Origin: Gammaproteobacteria bacterium
GTDB lineage: Bacteria > Pseudomonadota > Gammaproteobacteria > Steroidobacterales > Steroidobacteraceae
Length of the DNA: 64,000 nucleotides
Assembly (NCBI GenBank): GCA_025359565.1
Contig: JANYFY010000026.1
Coordinates: 1-64,000 of the forward strand
Direction of reading: 5' to 3'
Positions 45,446-52,559 of the stretch are shown piece after piece (position 1 is the first letter of the stretch; every line of letters starts with the position of its first letter). Below the pieces are notes generated by a model. That model made no database searches. It saw only the letters and a list, made by a program, of their open reading frames with translations, and was not told where the DNA came from. The translations under genes and the position numbers were made by a program.

Positions 45446-46627
45446 TTAGCGCAAATTTGCGGCAATGCGTCGATAGGCCTCGCGAAAGGGAATGCCCTCG
45501 TTCGCCACTAGGGCGTAAGCCGCGGCGGCGGCGTGTATGTTGGGATCAAATTTTATGTTTTTAGGATCAAAGCGTACGCCCGCCAATGCGCTGGGTAATA
45601 AATCCAAAGTCTCAAGACATGAATCGATGGCGCGAAACAGCGGCGGCTTAATAAGCTGTAGATCGCGGTGATAACCGGAGGTCAGTTTTTGGGTAATGTT
45701 GAGCACTTCGTTGAGCGCCGCACACGCTACCGCGCTGCGTCCGCGCACCAACTCAAACACATCCGGATTACGCTTTTGAGGCATGATGGATGAGCCCGTC
45801 GTGAATTCTTCCGGTAAATTCACGAAACTGAATTCCCATGTGTAAAAAAGTAGCAAATCGGCTGCGAGCCGCCCAGTATCTTGCGTTAGAAGGGTAATTT
45901 CGAACAGCAATTGTGCCTCAGCCTTGCCTCGCGACAATTGTACGGCGGTCACCGGTTCGTGATTAACGTTAAATTTTAGTTTTTCGCGAGTGGCGTCACG
46001 ATTGATATCAAGATTCGGTGTGCCGTAACCCGCGCCCGAGCCTAGAGGATTTTTTAGTATACGACGCGCGCAGTGTTCAAGCCCCGTGGCATCATCGCGA
46101 ATTTCGGATGCAAAGCCCTCAGCCCAAAGCGCGACGGTGCTAGGCATCGCTTGCTGCATGTGAGTATAGCCCGGCAAAACGATGGCACCGTCGCGCGCCG
46201 ACAACGCGTCCAGTGCATCCGCGACGTTAAGCGCGCCTTCGCGCAAAATCTGGCTCGTCGCATGCAGATAGAGCCGCAGCGCCGCCAGTATCTGATCATT
46301 CCTTGATCGGCCGGCATTTAGTCTTTCACCGGTGGACCCGATTCGAGCGGTGAGCAAATTCTCAATAGCGGTATGGCTATCCTCCTGTTCTAAGGGCACG
46401 CGCCACGTGCCTTCGCGGTGATCCTTGCCGATGAGAACGAGTGCGTCCCTTAAGGTTGACAGGTCGGTGTCTTGCAACAGGCCCTGTTCGCAGAGCATCT
46501 CAGCGTGTGCGATCGATGCTGCGATATCATATTGCACCAATCGATTATCCAGGATGTGATCATCCCCTGCAGTGTATGCCAGCACTCGGGCATTGAGTGG
46601 CACCCCTTTGTCCCAAAGTCGCGTCAT
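45446..46627 (-). CDS. argH: Argininosuccinate lyase
   Basis: A 393-residue fumarase/aspartase-superfamily lyase releasing arginine and fumarate. GRSRNDQ, the fumarate lyase signature GSSIMPQKRNPD, and GYTHMQQA with the catalytic His are intact. It is shorter than the 457 residues of E. coli ArgH because the C-terminal part is trimmed. The residues PLNARVLAYTAGDDHILDNRL at the start resemble Xanthomonadales/Bacteroidetes proteins. Overlaps argB by ATGA; last gene of the arginine operon. Confidence 0.96.
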   Translation of the reverse strand: MTRLWDKGVPLNARVLAYTAGDDHILDNRLVQYDIAASIAHAEMLCEQGLLQDTDLSTLRDALVLIGKDHREGTWRVPLEQEDSHTAIENLLTARIGSTGERLNAGRSRNDQILAALRLYLHATSQILREGALNVADALDALSARDGAIVLPGYTHMQQAMPSTVALWAEGFASEIRDDATGLEHCARRILKNPLGSGAGYGTPNLDINRDATREKLKFNVNHEPVTAVQLSRGKAEAQLLFEITLLTQDTGRLAADLLLFYTWEFSFVNLPEEFTTGSSIMPQKRNPDVFELVRGRSAVACAALNEVLNITQKLTSGYHRDLQLIKPPLFRAIDSCLETLDLLPSALAGVRFDPKNIKFDPNIHAAAAAYALVANEGIPFREAYRRIAANLR

Positions 46628-47579: not shown

Positions 47580-48575
47580 TTAAGCCAACATACGATGCAG
47601 TATCGCCATCTGCACCACCAATCGATTGAATGCTTGTCGCTGCACAACGGCGCGCGGGCCGTCTAACACTTCATCAGCCACCGCAACATTGCGGCGTACC
47701 GGTAAACAATGCATCAGCTTGGCATCGGCGAACGCATTGGCGAACCAATTCTCGCGCACGCACCAGTCTTGCAGTTCCGCTCTGAGTTTCGCGTCCGCTT
47801 CCGGGGCGCCGTAGTGGGTTGTGGAACCCCATTCTTTGGCGTACAACACATGCGCTCCCTTCAGTGCGAGCGTCCGATCGCTGGTTTCAGTGACTGCTCC
47901 CCCTGAAGATTTTGCTGCAACCCGCGCTTTACCCATGACGGTGGGGGGCAATGCGAATCCCTCAGGGCGTAATACTACGACCTCCATGCCGCGCATGGCC
48001 GCCATGTGTAGCGTGGCAGACGGTACCGCAAGCGGTAAAGCTTTAGGATGATAGACCCAGGTTAAGACGAATTTCCCACCGCTAGCGATTTTTAACTCAT
48101 CGAGAGTTCGCCAGTCGCACAGCGCTTGGGCCGGATGATTCATAGCCGACTCCAAATTGATCAGCGGTTTGTCGCACAGTTGATCAATAGTGGAAAATAG
48201 CGGTTCGCTTAAATCTTCCAACAAATTTTTACCCTCTGCAAATGCTCGTACCCCGAGAGCATCGCAGTAAGACGCAAGCACAGGTAGTGCCTCGCGAATA
48301 TGTTCCGCGGCTGTACCGTCCATGACGACGTTATTGCGAGTCTCCAAGCCCCAGGTGCCTTGACCCGGTGTGATAACGAACGAGTTGCCCCCTAAGTGCG
48401 CCATACCTGATTGGAACGAGGCGAGAGTGCGCAGCGAAGGATTGAGGAACAGTAGTCCTAGCACTTTACCCCTCAATGCGCGGGGTTCAGGCTTGTCCTG
48501 GAGTTTTTGCGCAAGGGCTAAAAGATCAAGAATTTGTGCACGTTCGAAATCAGCTAAGCTTAAAAAACGCCGCAT
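47580..48575 (-). CDS. argF': N-acylornithine carbamoyltransferase (acetyl or succinyl specificity unresolved)
   Basis: A 331-residue transcarbamylase of the AOTC/SOTC subgroup. FLNPSLRTLASFQ replaces the OTC-type STRTR loop. MDGTAAEHI, ESAMNHPAQALCDW, TWVYHPKALPLAVP and LMHCLPVRRN follow. At the residue that sets specificity in characterised enzymes (Glu92 in Xanthomonas AOTC, Pro90 in Bacteroides SOTC) this protein has Ala90. Surrounding text (EALPVLASYCDALGVRAFA, AVPSATL) reads closer to the Bacteroides protein. ATG 48575 with GGTGGA upstream avoids the 53-bp overlap of the longer frame. Confidence 0.9.
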   Translation of the reverse strand: MRRFLSLADFERAQILDLLALAQKLQDKPEPRALRGKVLGLLFLNPSLRTLASFQSGMAHLGGNSFVITPGQGTWGLETRNNVVMDGTAAEHIREALPVLASYCDALGVRAFAEGKNLLEDLSEPLFSTIDQLCDKPLINLESAMNHPAQALCDWRTLDELKIASGGKFVLTWVYHPKALPLAVPSATLHMAAMRGMEVVVLRPEGFALPPTVMGKARVAAKSSGGAVTETSDRTLALKGAHVLYAKEWGSTTHYGAPEADAKLRAELQDWCVRENWFANAFADAKLMHCLPVRRNVAVADEVLDGPRAVVQRQAFNRLVVQMAILHRMLA

Positions 48576-48579
48576 ACGC

Positions 48580-49650
48580 TTAGGTCCACCCGGGCGCAGT
48601 GGCGGTAAGTCCACTATGCTCCGGAAGGTCAAACAGCCGATTCATCCATTGCACCGCACCGCCCGCTGCACCTTTAGTGAGATTATCAATCACGGCAGTT
48701 ACTGCAATCGAATTCTTATCGGTAGTTGCACTCAGATGAGCAAAATTACTACTCACGACATCTTTGATTCGAGGTGCCGCGCCGCCGACTTTTACAAAAA
48801 AACATTCTCGATAGTAGTTATTAAAAGCACGTTGAACGTCTGCGCTCGACATCGCATTTTTAAGCGTGGCCATGACCGTGACATGGATGCCTCGGGAAAA
48901 AGGTCCTGAATGCGGTGCAAAATTAAATTCTGCGTCTGTCCCAGTGGCAGCCTTCGCGCACGCAATGATTTCCGGTACATGACGATGTGTAAGAACATTG
49001 TACGAATAAAGATCGCTATGCCGCAGCGGATGGTGGGTGCTGTCTGTGGGCTTTCGTCCTGAGCCAGTGCTGCCGGTAATACCGCTAATAAAAAACCGTG
49101 CATCCGTTAATTTTAGCGCCAGCAACGGCACACTCGCGAGCAATATAGCCGTGGCAAAACATCCCGGATGCGCGATATGGGGAGTCGGCGAGAGTGGCAA
49201 ATGCTCCGGCAGTGCACAGGTGAAACTCGCTATCCGTCCCGGTGCAGCGTGAGGATGATGGTACACAGCCTCGTAGGCGGCAGTGCTGCGATAACGGAAA
49301 TCGGCTGAAATATCTACGCAATGCGCGCGGATATTTGATTGCTCGGCAATGTTTAATAAGTGATCGACGCGACTCGCCGATACTCCGTGCGGAGCGGCTG
49401 AAAATATCGCGCAGGCTGCTTGAGCGCGTAACACTGATTCAACGGCTTCAAGACTCGCGAATTGCAAAGTAGGGTAGACGCTAAAAAGGTGCGGGAAAGC
49501 GTCACTCACAAGGCTTCCGGATTGACTGTCGGACAGTATGGCGGCGAGCTGCAAACGCGGATGGCCCGCGATGAGGCGCAATAGCTCTCCGGCCACGTAG
49601 CCGGTGCCCCCCAGTACGATCGCGGAAATTTGGGCTGCATGATGGGTCAT
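48580..49650 (-). CDS. argC: N-acyl-gamma-glutamyl-phosphate reductase
   Basis: A 356-residue NADPH-dependent reductase. N-terminal Rossmann motif VLGGTGYVAGELLRLI, active-site HPGCFATA with the nucleophilic Cys, and GITGSTGSGRKP. It makes the N-acylated glutamate semialdehyde. Its stop sits just ahead of the argF' ATG, and it overlaps the P-loop gene by ATGA. All catalytic features are present. The semialdehyde would next need an ArgD-type aminotransferase, absent here. Confidence 0.95.
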   Translation of the reverse strand: MTHHAAQISAIVLGGTGYVAGELLRLIAGHPRLQLAAILSDSQSGSLVSDAFPHLFSVYPTLQFASLEAVESVLRAQAACAIFSAAPHGVSASRVDHLLNIAEQSNIRAHCVDISADFRYRSTAAYEAVYHHPHAAPGRIASFTCALPEHLPLSPTPHIAHPGCFATAILLASVPLLALKLTDARFFISGITGSTGSGRKPTDSTHHPLRHSDLYSYNVLTHRHVPEIIACAKAATGTDAEFNFAPHSGPFSRGIHVTVMATLKNAMSSADVQRAFNNYYRECFFVKVGGAAPRIKDVVSSNFAHLSATTDKNSIAVTAVIDNLTKGAAGGAVQWMNRLFDLPEHSGLTATAPGWT

Positions 49651-50735
49651 CCAGTCATCACTTTAGGTTCGCGCACATTATGCAACTTCAGTTGTGCAAT
49701 CAGATAATCACCCAAATCTGCGGGATGACTAATCGCATTGAACGCTGCGACGTTCATTTGATCCTGAATAATTTCAACACCCACTTGGTTGTCGGTAGCA
49801 GGGCCTGTCACCGCAGCCGGTTCAATGCCAAAACGTTCGCGCAGGAGTTTTACACCTCCCCAAGCTGCGACCGGGTCATTGGCTGATAGGACCACGGAAT
49901 TGAGAGCGGCTTTTATGTCGGACTGGCGCAAAATTGATTCGACTCCGTAGGTGCCTAGCAGGCCATCGCCCAACTCGAAGACAATGACATCCGGTTTGCC
50001 GCTGGCCATTTCGGTGAGCATGACGCGCGTTAACGCGGGTCCGCATTGTGCGGTGGTGGTAACGATTCCTAGATCGGTGAATATCATAGTGCGGCGCGCA
50101 CCCGAATCTTCAAATGCAAGAATATCTCGGCGTAGCGAAACCCCTGTGGCTTTAAAAGCATCCACAATGAGTCCGCGATGTCGCATGCGGGCAATGATTG
50201 CTGAGGCAGCCGCCGTTTTTCCGGCTTCCATGCAGGTGCCCGCTAGCGCTATTACCGGTACGCCGTACGTGTCGAGCGTAGCGTTGTAGTCTAAGGTTTT
50301 GTAGCCCACTCTGGCGGCAACACCGATGCGTTCGCCTAGATAGGGAAAGGTTAAAACTGCCCCTAACACTTTGCAATCAAATGGCTTGCCTTTGTCTTGA
50401 GTGGCGGAATCACAGATGCCAAGCACGCCACCGATGTTCAACATCTGGATGATATTGCCCGGTGCGAGATTCGCTGGAATATGACCGGAGTAACCAAAGA
50501 GCGCCTTACGATGCCCCAAAGCGCCTACCACAATATCGCCACGCGCAACCTTCGCCATACGTCCGCTCGTCAGTTCTAGCGTGTTGTAGTTGGACTTGTT
50601 GTTCAGTACTTCCACAACAATGACGACTCCTTCTTCACAAATGATTTCGGGAGCAATACGAATTTCATGCGATAAAGCGCAGGCCTGAGTGACCGAGGCA
50701 ATTTTGTCGACGTAAACTGTGCGCATCCCGGTCAT
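49647..50735 (-). CDS. P-loop protein related to BioD/DUF1611, unknown function, in the arginine operon
   Basis: A 362-residue soluble protein I cannot assign. Residues 1-160 are beta-rich (VVIVVEVLNNKSNYNTLEL, GDIVVGALGHRKALFGYSGHIP, GGVLGICDSA). From about 161 a P-loop domain begins: VIALAGTCMEAGKTAAASAI, whose G-x5-GKT spacing is that of dethiobiotin synthetase and DUF1611 proteins, then GLIVDAFKATG and PDVIVFELGDGLLGTYG. It is locked between argG (7 bp) and argC (4-bp overlap), so it should act in arginine synthesis. ATG 50735 is chosen over the frame to 50855, which runs into argG. See findings for the hypothesis of an N-acyltransferase role. Confidence 0.8.
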   Translation of the reverse strand: MTGMRTVYVDKIASVTQACALSHEIRIAPEIICEEGVVIVVEVLNNKSNYNTLELTSGRMAKVARGDIVVGALGHRKALFGYSGHIPANLAPGNIIQMLNIGGVLGICDSATQDKGKPFDCKVLGAVLTFPYLGERIGVAARVGYKTLDYNATLDTYGVPVIALAGTCMEAGKTAAASAIIARMRHRGLIVDAFKATGVSLRRDILAFEDSGARRTMIFTDLGIVTTTAQCGPALTRVMLTEMASGKPDVIVFELGDGLLGTYGVESILRQSDIKAALNSVVLSANDPVAAWGGVKLLRERFGIEPAAVTGPATDNQVGVEIIQDQMNVAAFNAISHPADLGDYLIAQLKLHNVREPKVMTG

Positions 50736-50742
50736 GAACGTT

Positions 50743-51990
50743 TTAAGATTCCGTGCGCGTGCACTCCACACGCGTAGCGCCTGCGCGACCATAAAAAATT
50801 CCCGGTAGGGCGAGCATTTTCGAATAACCCAAAGCGTCCGTGGCACTCCATTCACCGGCCGCTTCGCCGTATACGCCCTTGGAAGCTGCCATAAGGGAGT
50901 AAGGAGACGTCACTCCTTCAATGAACAGGGAACCGGGCCGACACGTTAAAACAACTTCTCCGCTCACACGAGTTTGTGAGGAAAGAAGTAGGGCTTCGAT
51001 ATCCCGGCAGACTGGATCCAAATGTTGCCCTTCGTGTACTAGGTCACCATAACTTTGCGCGACTATTTCTTTAAGGCGCGCCTGTTTACCGCTGAGGACC
51101 AATTTTTCAAGCTCGCGGTGCGCGCTCAGTAGCACCTCGGCTGCCGGTGCTTCAAAAGCAACCCGACCCTTGGTGCCGATGACTGTATCGCCTAAATGAA
51201 TGCCTCGCCCAATGCCAAAGGGACCGGCGAGCGATTCTAGGTTTTCAATAATGGTCACTGCAGATAAATGCACGCCGTCTAAAGTTACGGGAATCCCCGC
51301 TTGGAATCCGATGCAATGGCGTTTGGCGGCTCTAGGATGAGAGAACGCTTGTGAGGACAGCACCCAGGCACTCTCGGGGATACTCTCGGCTGATGTTAAA
51401 GTTTCCTTGCCCCCAATAGTCACGCCCCAGAGTCCACGATTGACAGAATAAGCGCCGCCGTAGGGTGGTATCGGCAACTGATGTTCTTGCAGATACTGAA
51501 GTTGTTCCGGACGTTTGAAAGCGCGGTCGCGTATCGGCGCAATGATATCTAAATCGGGTGCTAAGGTACGCAGGGCCACCTCAAATCGAACCTGGTCATT
51601 GCCGGCCGCCGTGCAGCCGTGAGCGACCCGTTGCGTTTTAAGTTTAACGGCCATTTGTGCAATAGTTTGCGCTTGTATCACGCGCTCGGCTCCCACGCAG
51701 AGCGGATACAACGATCCGCGGCGCACGTTGCCCATGATCAGAAATTTGAGCACCTGGTCGAAATAAGCGGCGCGCGCATCGATTATATGATGTTCGATGG
51801 CCCCCAATTTTAAGGCGCGCTCTTCCAGCGCGGTGGCTGCCGCCTCGTTTATCCCACCCGTGTTAACAGTAACGGTGATAACGGGACATTGGTAGGTGCT
51901 TTTAAGCCAGGGCACACAGAATGAGGTATCCAAGCCGCCGGAGAAGGCAAGGAGAATCGGCTGTTGGTCGGTCGCGAGGGAGCTGGGCAT
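50743..51990 (-). CDS. argG: Argininosuccinate synthase
   Basis: A 415-residue ATP-pyrophosphatase-fold synthase joining citrulline and aspartate. The PP-loop ILLAFSGGLDTSFCVPWL is followed by TVTVNTGG, GSLYPLCVGAERV, AHGCTAAGNDQVRFE and GLWGVTIGGKE. Slightly shorter than the 447-residue E. coli-type enzyme and closer to the 400-residue class. It is the second gene after argR (21 bp gap). Confidence 0.96.
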   Translation of the reverse strand: MPSSLATDQQPILLAFSGGLDTSFCVPWLKSTYQCPVITVTVNTGGINEAAATALEERALKLGAIEHHIIDARAAYFDQVLKFLIMGNVRRGSLYPLCVGAERVIQAQTIAQMAVKLKTQRVAHGCTAAGNDQVRFEVALRTLAPDLDIIAPIRDRAFKRPEQLQYLQEHQLPIPPYGGAYSVNRGLWGVTIGGKETLTSAESIPESAWVLSSQAFSHPRAAKRHCIGFQAGIPVTLDGVHLSAVTIIENLESLAGPFGIGRGIHLGDTVIGTKGRVAFEAPAAEVLLSAHRELEKLVLSGKQARLKEIVAQSYGDLVHEGQHLDPVCRDIEALLLSSQTRVSGEVVLTCRPGSLFIEGVTSPYSLMAASKGVYGEAAGEWSATDALGYSKMLALPGIFYGRAGATRVECTRTES

Positions 51991-52011: not shown

Positions 52012-52509
52012 TTAATGATTTAAAAAAATTGGCGTTTTTTTGCCGAAAATGGCGAGCAACCGCTCACCTAGTTTTTGTTGCTCGCGCCCGTCGCGAGTGG
52101 CGATAAAAATCGTGTCGTCACCGGAAATGGTGCCAATAACTTCCGGCCATCTCGCCGTGTCGATCGCAACCGCAACGCTTTGCGCCGAGCCAATAGTCGT
52201 TTTAAGCACCGTCAAATTGGTGCCGGCGGTCAGAATGACGCTTACAAATTGCGTGAGAGTTGAGAAATCGTTTTTGACGTTGTGGTGCTCATCCGGCATC
52301 ACATAACGATCGCTTTGTTTCGCGACACCTAATTCCCGTAAATCTCGACTGACGCTTGACTGTGTGGCGATGAAACCCTCTTTTTGTAACAGGGCGACCA
52401 ATTCTGACTGTCGGCCGACCTCGCGCTCGCGGATGAGCTTGGCAAGCATTGAGCGCCGTAAGTTACTGGTGTGATCGATGGAAGTTTTTACACCGGGTGC
52501 GTGTTTCAT
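52012..52509 (-). CDS. argR: Arginine repressor
   Basis: A 165-residue ArgR/AhrC. N-terminal winged helix (RQSELVALLQKEGFIATQSSVSRDLRELGVAK) and C-terminal arginine-binding trimerisation domain (TISGDDTIFIATRDGREQQKLGERLLAIFG), including the GDDT arginine-contact motif. ATG 52509 is preferred over 52539. It is the first gene of the operon it should repress, with two ARG-box-like sites in its promoter. Confidence 0.95.
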   Translation of the reverse strand: MKHAPGVKTSIDHTSNLRRSMLAKLIREREVGRQSELVALLQKEGFIATQSSVSRDLRELGVAKQSDRYVMPDEHHNVKNDFSTLTQFVSVILTAGTNLTVLKTTIGSAQSVAVAIDTARWPEVIGTISGDDTIFIATRDGREQQKLGERLLAIFGKKTPIFLNH

Positions 52510-52524
52510 GAAATTTTCATTATT

Positions 52525-52559
52525 TGCATAAGTTCCCAATAATTATGCATAAAAATTCA
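52525..52559. promoter_or_regulatory. Tandem ARG-box-like operator upstream of argR
   Basis: TGCATAAAAATTCA at 52546-52559 matches the ArgR core TGAATWWWWATTCA at 13 of 14 positions. TGCATAAGTTCCCA at 52525-52538 is a weaker copy. The two start exactly 21 bp apart, the spacing (18-bp box plus 3 bp) of tandem ARG boxes in E. coli. They lie 16-50 bp upstream of argR, so arginine should autoregulate the whole operon. Confidence 0.75.

Follow-up and report, generated by a model that had tools for sequence, protein, structure and literature searches.

A P-loop protein encoded between argG and argC is a candidate N-succinyl-L-glutamate synthase of Steroidobacteraceae and allied Gammaproteobacteria

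Organisms with the ornithine acetyltransferase ArgJ can dispense with argA as well as argE, and DgcN proteins are said to use acetyl-CoA. A published account, in the part drawn on here, places dgcN in D-glutamate use and leaves the acyl donor unnamed. For Bacteroidetes, a succinylated arginine pathway has been described, with the synthase BT3761, the carbamoyltransferase SOTCase and the desuccinylase BT3549 (passages of PMC7311316); the passages used describe BT3761 as >50% identical to the Caldithrix synthase Cabys_1732. Acetyl-type carbamoyltransferases are marked by Glu92, Asn185 and Lys302, succinyl-type enzymes by Ala, Ser, Pro, Val or Gln, by Pro, and by Val, Ile or Glu at the same three positions (excerpts of PMC4581275), and succinyl is preferred with Ser, Pro, Ala or Val at the switch position (PMC7311316, same passages).

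The window, a stretch of 64,000 nucleotides at the beginning of contig JANYFY010000026.1 (assembly GCA_025359565.1) from a member of the Steroidobacteraceae, contains an arginine operon (Table 1). An earlier note, made from the sequence alone, had named argR, argG, argC, argF', argB and argH around a further gene, here called X, and Pfam and NCBIfam searches bear these names out. It had also listed argA, argJ, argD and argE as missing from the cluster, and none of the four is found there. The argB product is a kinase only and lacks the acetyltransferase domain of NAGS-kinases (NAGS-K). The argF' reading frame opens with TTG; its likely start is the ATG at 48575, residue 20 of the frame. Gene X lies where the note had placed it, runs from ATG to TGA, and overlaps argC as described (ATGA, the TGA of X with the ATG of argC). 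Because most aligned orthologues begin at its second methionine (residue 4, 50726), the true start of X may lie there.

Table 1. Features of the arginine operon, in coordinates of the window
Feature	Position	Strand	Evidence
argR, arginine repressor	52012..52539	-	PF02863 (70.4 bits) and PF01316 (51.7 bits) over their cut-offs; TIGR01529 114.8 bits, below 130.45
argG, argininosuccinate synthase	50743..51990	-	TIGR00032 276.2 bits, cut-off 268.2
Gene X, candidate N-succinyl-L-glutamate synthase	49647..50735	-	362 aa
P-loop GTCMEAGKT, X residues 166-174	50214..50240	-	G166, G172, K173, T174 invariant, 31 sequences
KATG motif, X residues 195-198	50142..50153	-	K195, G198 invariant, 31 sequences
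ELGDGLLG motif, X residues 254-261	49953..49976	-	E254 invariant, 31 sequences
argC, N-acetyl(acyl)-gamma-glutamyl-phosphate reductase	48580..49650	-	TIGR01850 277.3 bits, cut-off 233.6
argF', carbamoyltransferase with succinyl-type residues	47580..48632	-	NF003384 338.3 bits, cut-off 288
argF' Ala109 codon (ORF numbering), corresponding to Glu92 of X. campestris AOTCase, acetyl/succinyl switch	48306..48308	-	
argB, acyl-glutamate kinase, 314 aa	46624..47568	-	TIGR00761 212.3 bits, cut-off 151.3
argH, argininosuccinate lyase	45446..46627	-	TIGR00838 276.0 bits, cut-off 279.5; PF00206 140.2 bits, over cut-off

The position of X is highly conserved. We fetched 112 loci with X, namely 20 from a search for relatives (window included), 80 from a GTDB-based collection (the best 80 of 184 scan-confirmed relatives) and 12 from order relatives; some may come from one genome twice. 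The order argG-X-argC is intact in 111 of them, the exception being L078, where an argG match was not found. Strong matches to X occur in 48 of 60 genomes of the order. Across the class Gammaproteobacteria, the X profile matched 26 of 369 genomes at 1e-10; outside the order, four matches are strong (331-377 bits) and the remainder, at 116 bits or less, are more distant homologues. All four strong outgroup genes are placed argG-X-argC, and in three of them an argD-like aminotransferase gene, argF', argB and argH lie alongside (the fourth sits on a short contig). The aminotransferase is named from a TIGR00707 match of 320.7 bits, below the cut-off of 410. One locus with a Steroidobacteraceae-type arginine operon and X (L076, CAMCBU010000002.1) is titled as a Klebsiella pneumoniae MAG, probably a mislabel.

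Among 31 aligned X sequences, with identity down to 25%, the seven motif residues marked in Table 1 are all invariant, as is Asp204, and Asp210 is nearly so. The motifs are therefore not chance matches. Of those pointed out in the earlier note, the G-x5-GKT loop and ELGDGLL (254-260) hold with their key residues; in KATG the outer letters are the invariant ones, and the middle letters vary in the outgroup (KLTG, KTTG). A first structure model of X (pLDDT 76.8) was set aside as too weak in the N-terminal half, and a second was used. In agreement with the beta-rich N-terminal half described earlier, the first ~155 residues are predicted to form beta strands and one helix of at least four residues. 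The P-loop half is predicted to adopt a fold shared with DUF1611 and with BioD and CTP synthase, and a structural relative, PDB 7xrj, is titled N-acetyltransferase; the Foldseek and VIA rows for X cover mainly this half. X has the BioD-type P-loop GK-T, the following lysine and the acidic metal-ligand positions (K173, T174, K195, D204, E254, D210), a set that resembles the residues of the BioD ATP/Mg site. At the position of Thr174, six aligned DgcN-type proteins (DUF1611; NF041892; PDB 7xrj) have Lys or Met.

The label of a DUF1611/BioD-like protein proposed in the earlier note thus stands as a structural relation, not as a sequence assignment. X scored 13 bits against DUF1611 (PF07755, E 0.068), below the Pfam gathering cut-off of 25 bits, and 17 of 25 X proteins matched it at E ≤ 1 (best 3.3e-4). 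None of the 25 matched DUF1611_N (PF17396) at E ≤ 1, a threshold at which the HMMER filters drop most very weak matches. Profile comparison, with a profile from few sequences, aligned only 57 columns of X with DUF1611, at a probability of 7%. By sequence, we therefore ruled out X as a DUF1611 protein and kept the fold relation. X is also ruled out as the DgcN of this genome, which has a separate DgcN-DgcA-like pair (D-glutamate catabolism; L134:5686-7727, G000:C8), followed by a TPR-sulfotransferase protein. This DgcN-type protein reaches 243.8 bits with DUF1611 and 80.5 bits with PF17396; both members of the pair score just under their NCBIfam cut-offs. The suggested profile search for BioD gave no match of TIGR00347 to X at E ≤ 1, and a distant homologue on a Priestia plasmid matched at 7.2e-6, below cut-off. 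Searches for a solved relative by sequence returned only chance matches with phmmer and none with a profile. X matched no ArgA, NAGS-K (GNAT) or ArgJ model. Judged by its sequence, the family is undescribed, and neither Pfam nor NCBIfam covers it with a model above threshold. In the open-licence literature searched, we found no account for these bacteria of X, of an N-succinylglutamate synthase or of arginine synthesis through succinylated intermediates.

The presence of X goes together with the loss of two standard functions. ArgJ (PF01960) was absent from all 60 genomes of the order. The acetyltransferase domain of NAGS-K (PF04768) was detected in nine, all of them lacking X; the window genome has neither domain anywhere. 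The same nine genomes have argE orthologues, with scores of 260 bits or more; the query came from a cluster without X and is itself over the cut-off of 345 bits for the acetylornithine deacetylase model NF006439 (447.8 bits). None was found in the 48 genomes with X, where the best match was a paralogue of 105.5 bits. The 48 genomes with X thus lack the usual synthase as well as the usual deacetylase. In the four outgroup genomes the NAGS side was judged from the ArgA model only. What this model found there, as in the 60 genomes, were kinase halves of the argB type, all below cut-off. Its GNAT half was weakly matched in 13 of the 48 genomes with X and in two of the four outgroup genomes. In the window genome it found argB alone, with no GNAT-half match, so that the argA or argJ elsewhere in the genome that the earlier note had wanted sought is missing for all tested types. 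Three genomes of the order (G045, G048, G058) have neither X, nor NAGS-K, nor a special carbamoyltransferase over cut-off, and possibly use another arginine route or are auxotrophs.

These counts cannot be treated as independent. For 20 of the 60 genomes (13 with X, 7 without), a DapE tree requires two changes between presence and absence of X, one of them forced by well-supported branches. In a tree of 30 carbamoyltransferases, the sequences from genomes with X, from outgroup X genomes and from genomes without X each form one clade, with one outgroup sequence on a long, unsure branch. The contrast may therefore be one of two lineages of X operons against one lineage without. Over long divergence, the genomes sampled within the order have nevertheless kept X in company with the succinyl-type residues and without argE or NAGS-K.

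The carbamoyltransferases bear on the acyl group. We aligned 84 sequences from loci with X, representing 82 genes (the window is also included as fragment L001, and L052 comes as two pieces), with three from outgroup X genomes and eight from the nine genomes that have NAGS-K but no X; G053, with a contig-end fragment only, was left out. At positions 92, 185 and 302, genomes without X have E-N-K in seven sequences and E-N-Q in one. With X, position 92 is Ala (83/83 with a letter there) and position 185 is Pro (81/81); at position 302, 71 of 81 sequences have Ala and ten have Val. The outgroup enzymes read P-P-E twice and V-P-E once, and all three fit the published succinyl marks. The argF' of the window has Ala, Pro and Ala. 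Since Ala at 302 lies outside the published list, this argF' carries two of the three marks; nor is the third residue the Lys of AOTCase. Ala at 302, the rule in the order, counts against a succinyl reading. Taken together, the neighbouring genes suggest that the group which X would attach to glutamate is succinyl, not acetyl.

A succinylated route calls for a deacylase. The intact operons examined carry no dedicated deacylase gene anywhere from argR to argH. The window genome has eight M20 matches. Only one of these, the desuccinylase DapE, exceeds the cut-off of a curated deacylase equivalog model (TIGR01246, 544.6 bits). PRK09133, annotated as hypothetical, is matched by four others (three have N-termini that read as leader-like, the start of the fourth being unsure), another is dipeptidase-like with a score below cut-off, and the last two are without match at 1e-20. 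DapE exceeds its cut-off in 52 of the 60 genomes, among them 43 of the 48 that carry X; in the other five of these 48, it is in pieces in three, represented by a weak paralogue only in G014, and missing in G008. Purely by elimination, over the searches for argE, for M20 deacylases and for AstE/AspA-type enzymes, DapE is the best remaining candidate for the desuccinylase.

From the operon position, the conservation, the swap, the argF' residue pattern and the predicted fold, we infer the reaction, the acyl group, its donor and the role of DapE. In Steroidobacteraceae and allied Gammaproteobacteria, arginine synthesis probably begins with X, which at this first committed step would N-acylate L-glutamate, most likely with succinyl, to give N-succinyl-L-glutamate. 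The succinylated intermediates would then pass through ArgB, ArgC, an aminotransferase and the succinyl-type argF' product to N-succinyl-citrulline, from which a desuccinylase, perhaps DapE, would free citrulline for completion of arginine by ArgG and ArgH. The non-orthologous glutamate N-acyltransferase in place of ArgA/ArgJ, as which the earlier note had proposed X, is indirectly well supported by the strict swap with NAGS-K and argE and by the operon position. By analogy, the P-loop half may bind a phosphorylated cosubstrate. The donor could be succinyl-CoA, as in a DgcN-like reaction, or free succinate with ATP via succinyl phosphate, as in a BioD-like one; given a BioD-like site in X and Lys or Met at the Thr174 position in DgcN-type proteins, succinyl-CoA transfer and an ATP-dependent ligase both stand.

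The P-loop fold is more usual in ATP-dependent enzymes than in acyl-CoA transferases, and this counts against acyl-CoA transfer by X. We hold it possible, at low confidence, that X is specifically an ATP-dependent N-succinyl-L-glutamate ligase that activates succinate in BioD-like fashion, starting the pathway without acyl-CoA and sharing DapE, and possibly the aminotransferase, with lysine/diaminopimelate synthesis; argE would then be missing because the succinyl group lets DapE serve both pathways. The acyl group might instead be acetyl, with X an N-acetyl-L-glutamate synthase and an argF' product that works on N-acetylornithine in spite of its altered residues. The title of 7xrj, the score of argF' above the cut-off of the N-acetylornithine carbamoyltransferase model NF003384 and the prevalence of Ala at 302 fit this view. 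We think it unlikely, however, as Glu92 is replaced by Ala, Pro or Val, the residues of the succinyl-preferring enzymes in the passages of PMC7311316 cited above, and Asn185 by Pro in every sequence with letters there from genomes with X, the outgroup included; Lys never occurs at position 302, which holds Ala, Val or Glu, and the acetyl-removing argE is missing from all 48 genomes with X.

Doubt about X as the first enzyme itself comes from the weak GNAT-half matches, and unusual N-acetylglutamate synthases are known in other bacteria (PMC3827942, in part). X could then act elsewhere, for example as a regulator or as an enzyme that converts glutamate or carbamoyl phosphate in a side reaction, with an unrecognised GNAT protein taking the first step. 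This has little probability in our judgement: the weak matches are absent from the window genome and most genomes with X, the swap with NAGS-K is strict, and X keeps its place between argG and argC. Loss of both the synthase domain and argE is also the pattern of ArgJ organisms, and no AstE/AspA-type desuccinylase was found over cut-off in the 60 genomes. X might therefore be a transacylase, a non-homologous analogue of ArgJ that hands the acyl group of N-acyl-citrulline back to glutamate and thereby stands in for synthase and argE in one cyclic step. We consider this improbable, since such a transfer offers no evident role for the P-loop domain, whose Lys-Thr pair is intact, and DapE, where over cut-off, could do the release.

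Distant homologues of X were also found beside other genes. In relatives within the order, such homologues (~30% identity) adjoin an M20 peptidase (~390 aa) and a flavin reductase-like protein (~205 aa), as checked with Pfam in L135:5824-8661 and L137:6399-9246 and judged by neighbour size alone in L136, L138 and L139; these loci look like a module that protects, oxidises and deprotects. On the Priestia megaterium plasmid NZ_CP085446.1 (84762-93625, L122), a homologue annotated as hypothetical lies with a PEP mutase-family protein, a split TPP enzyme, an ornithine carbamoyltransferase, two ATP-grasp proteins, an M20 peptidase and an LLM oxidoreductase, a cluster that resembles one for a phosphonate natural product. 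In another group (L121, L123, L174, L175, L176), the X-like gene directly precedes a gene of 526-568 aa, for which the two named records give the annotation ABC transporter ATP-binding protein. The vicinity of M20 deacylases is only suggestive of a wider protect-and-deprotect enzyme family and would fit protection and release of an amino group.

If X is a succinylating synthase, most members of a bacterial order, judging from 48 of the 60 genomes sampled, and scattered other Gammaproteobacteria would start arginine with an enzyme family that lacks a Pfam or NCBIfam model above threshold, and N-succinyl-glutamate would be an unrecognised way into arginine synthesis. Succinylated intermediates would extend beyond Bacteroidetes, for which GapMind and PMC7311316, in the passages used, describe that pathway. 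An annotation gap in genomes with X would be filled, and a class added to the ArgA, ArgJ and NAGS-K types, with a BioD-like P-loop domain employed in amino-acid N-acylation. The service of DapE in two pathways would become testable.

Among known systems, the Xanthomonas-type combination of NAGS-K (an ArgA/B fusion), argE and AOTCase occurs in the same bacterial order, and shares with X genomes the kind of carbamoyltransferase and the inferred order of steps, with carbamoylation before deacylation. X genomes differ from it in a kinase-only argB, the loss of argE, the presence of X and the succinyl-type residues of the carbamoyltransferase. These residues are common to argF' and the succinylated pathway of Bacteroidetes (PMC7311316, in part), whereas X is a P-loop protein and the genomes that carry it are Gammaproteobacteria. 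With ArgJ organisms, X genomes have in common the dispensability of argA and argE, yet PF01960 is absent and X resembles no ArgJ model. DgcN and X reside in one genome, the former paired with DgcA and the latter with arginine genes. In contrast to BioD and CTP synthase, finally, X carries an additional N-terminal half rich in beta structure.
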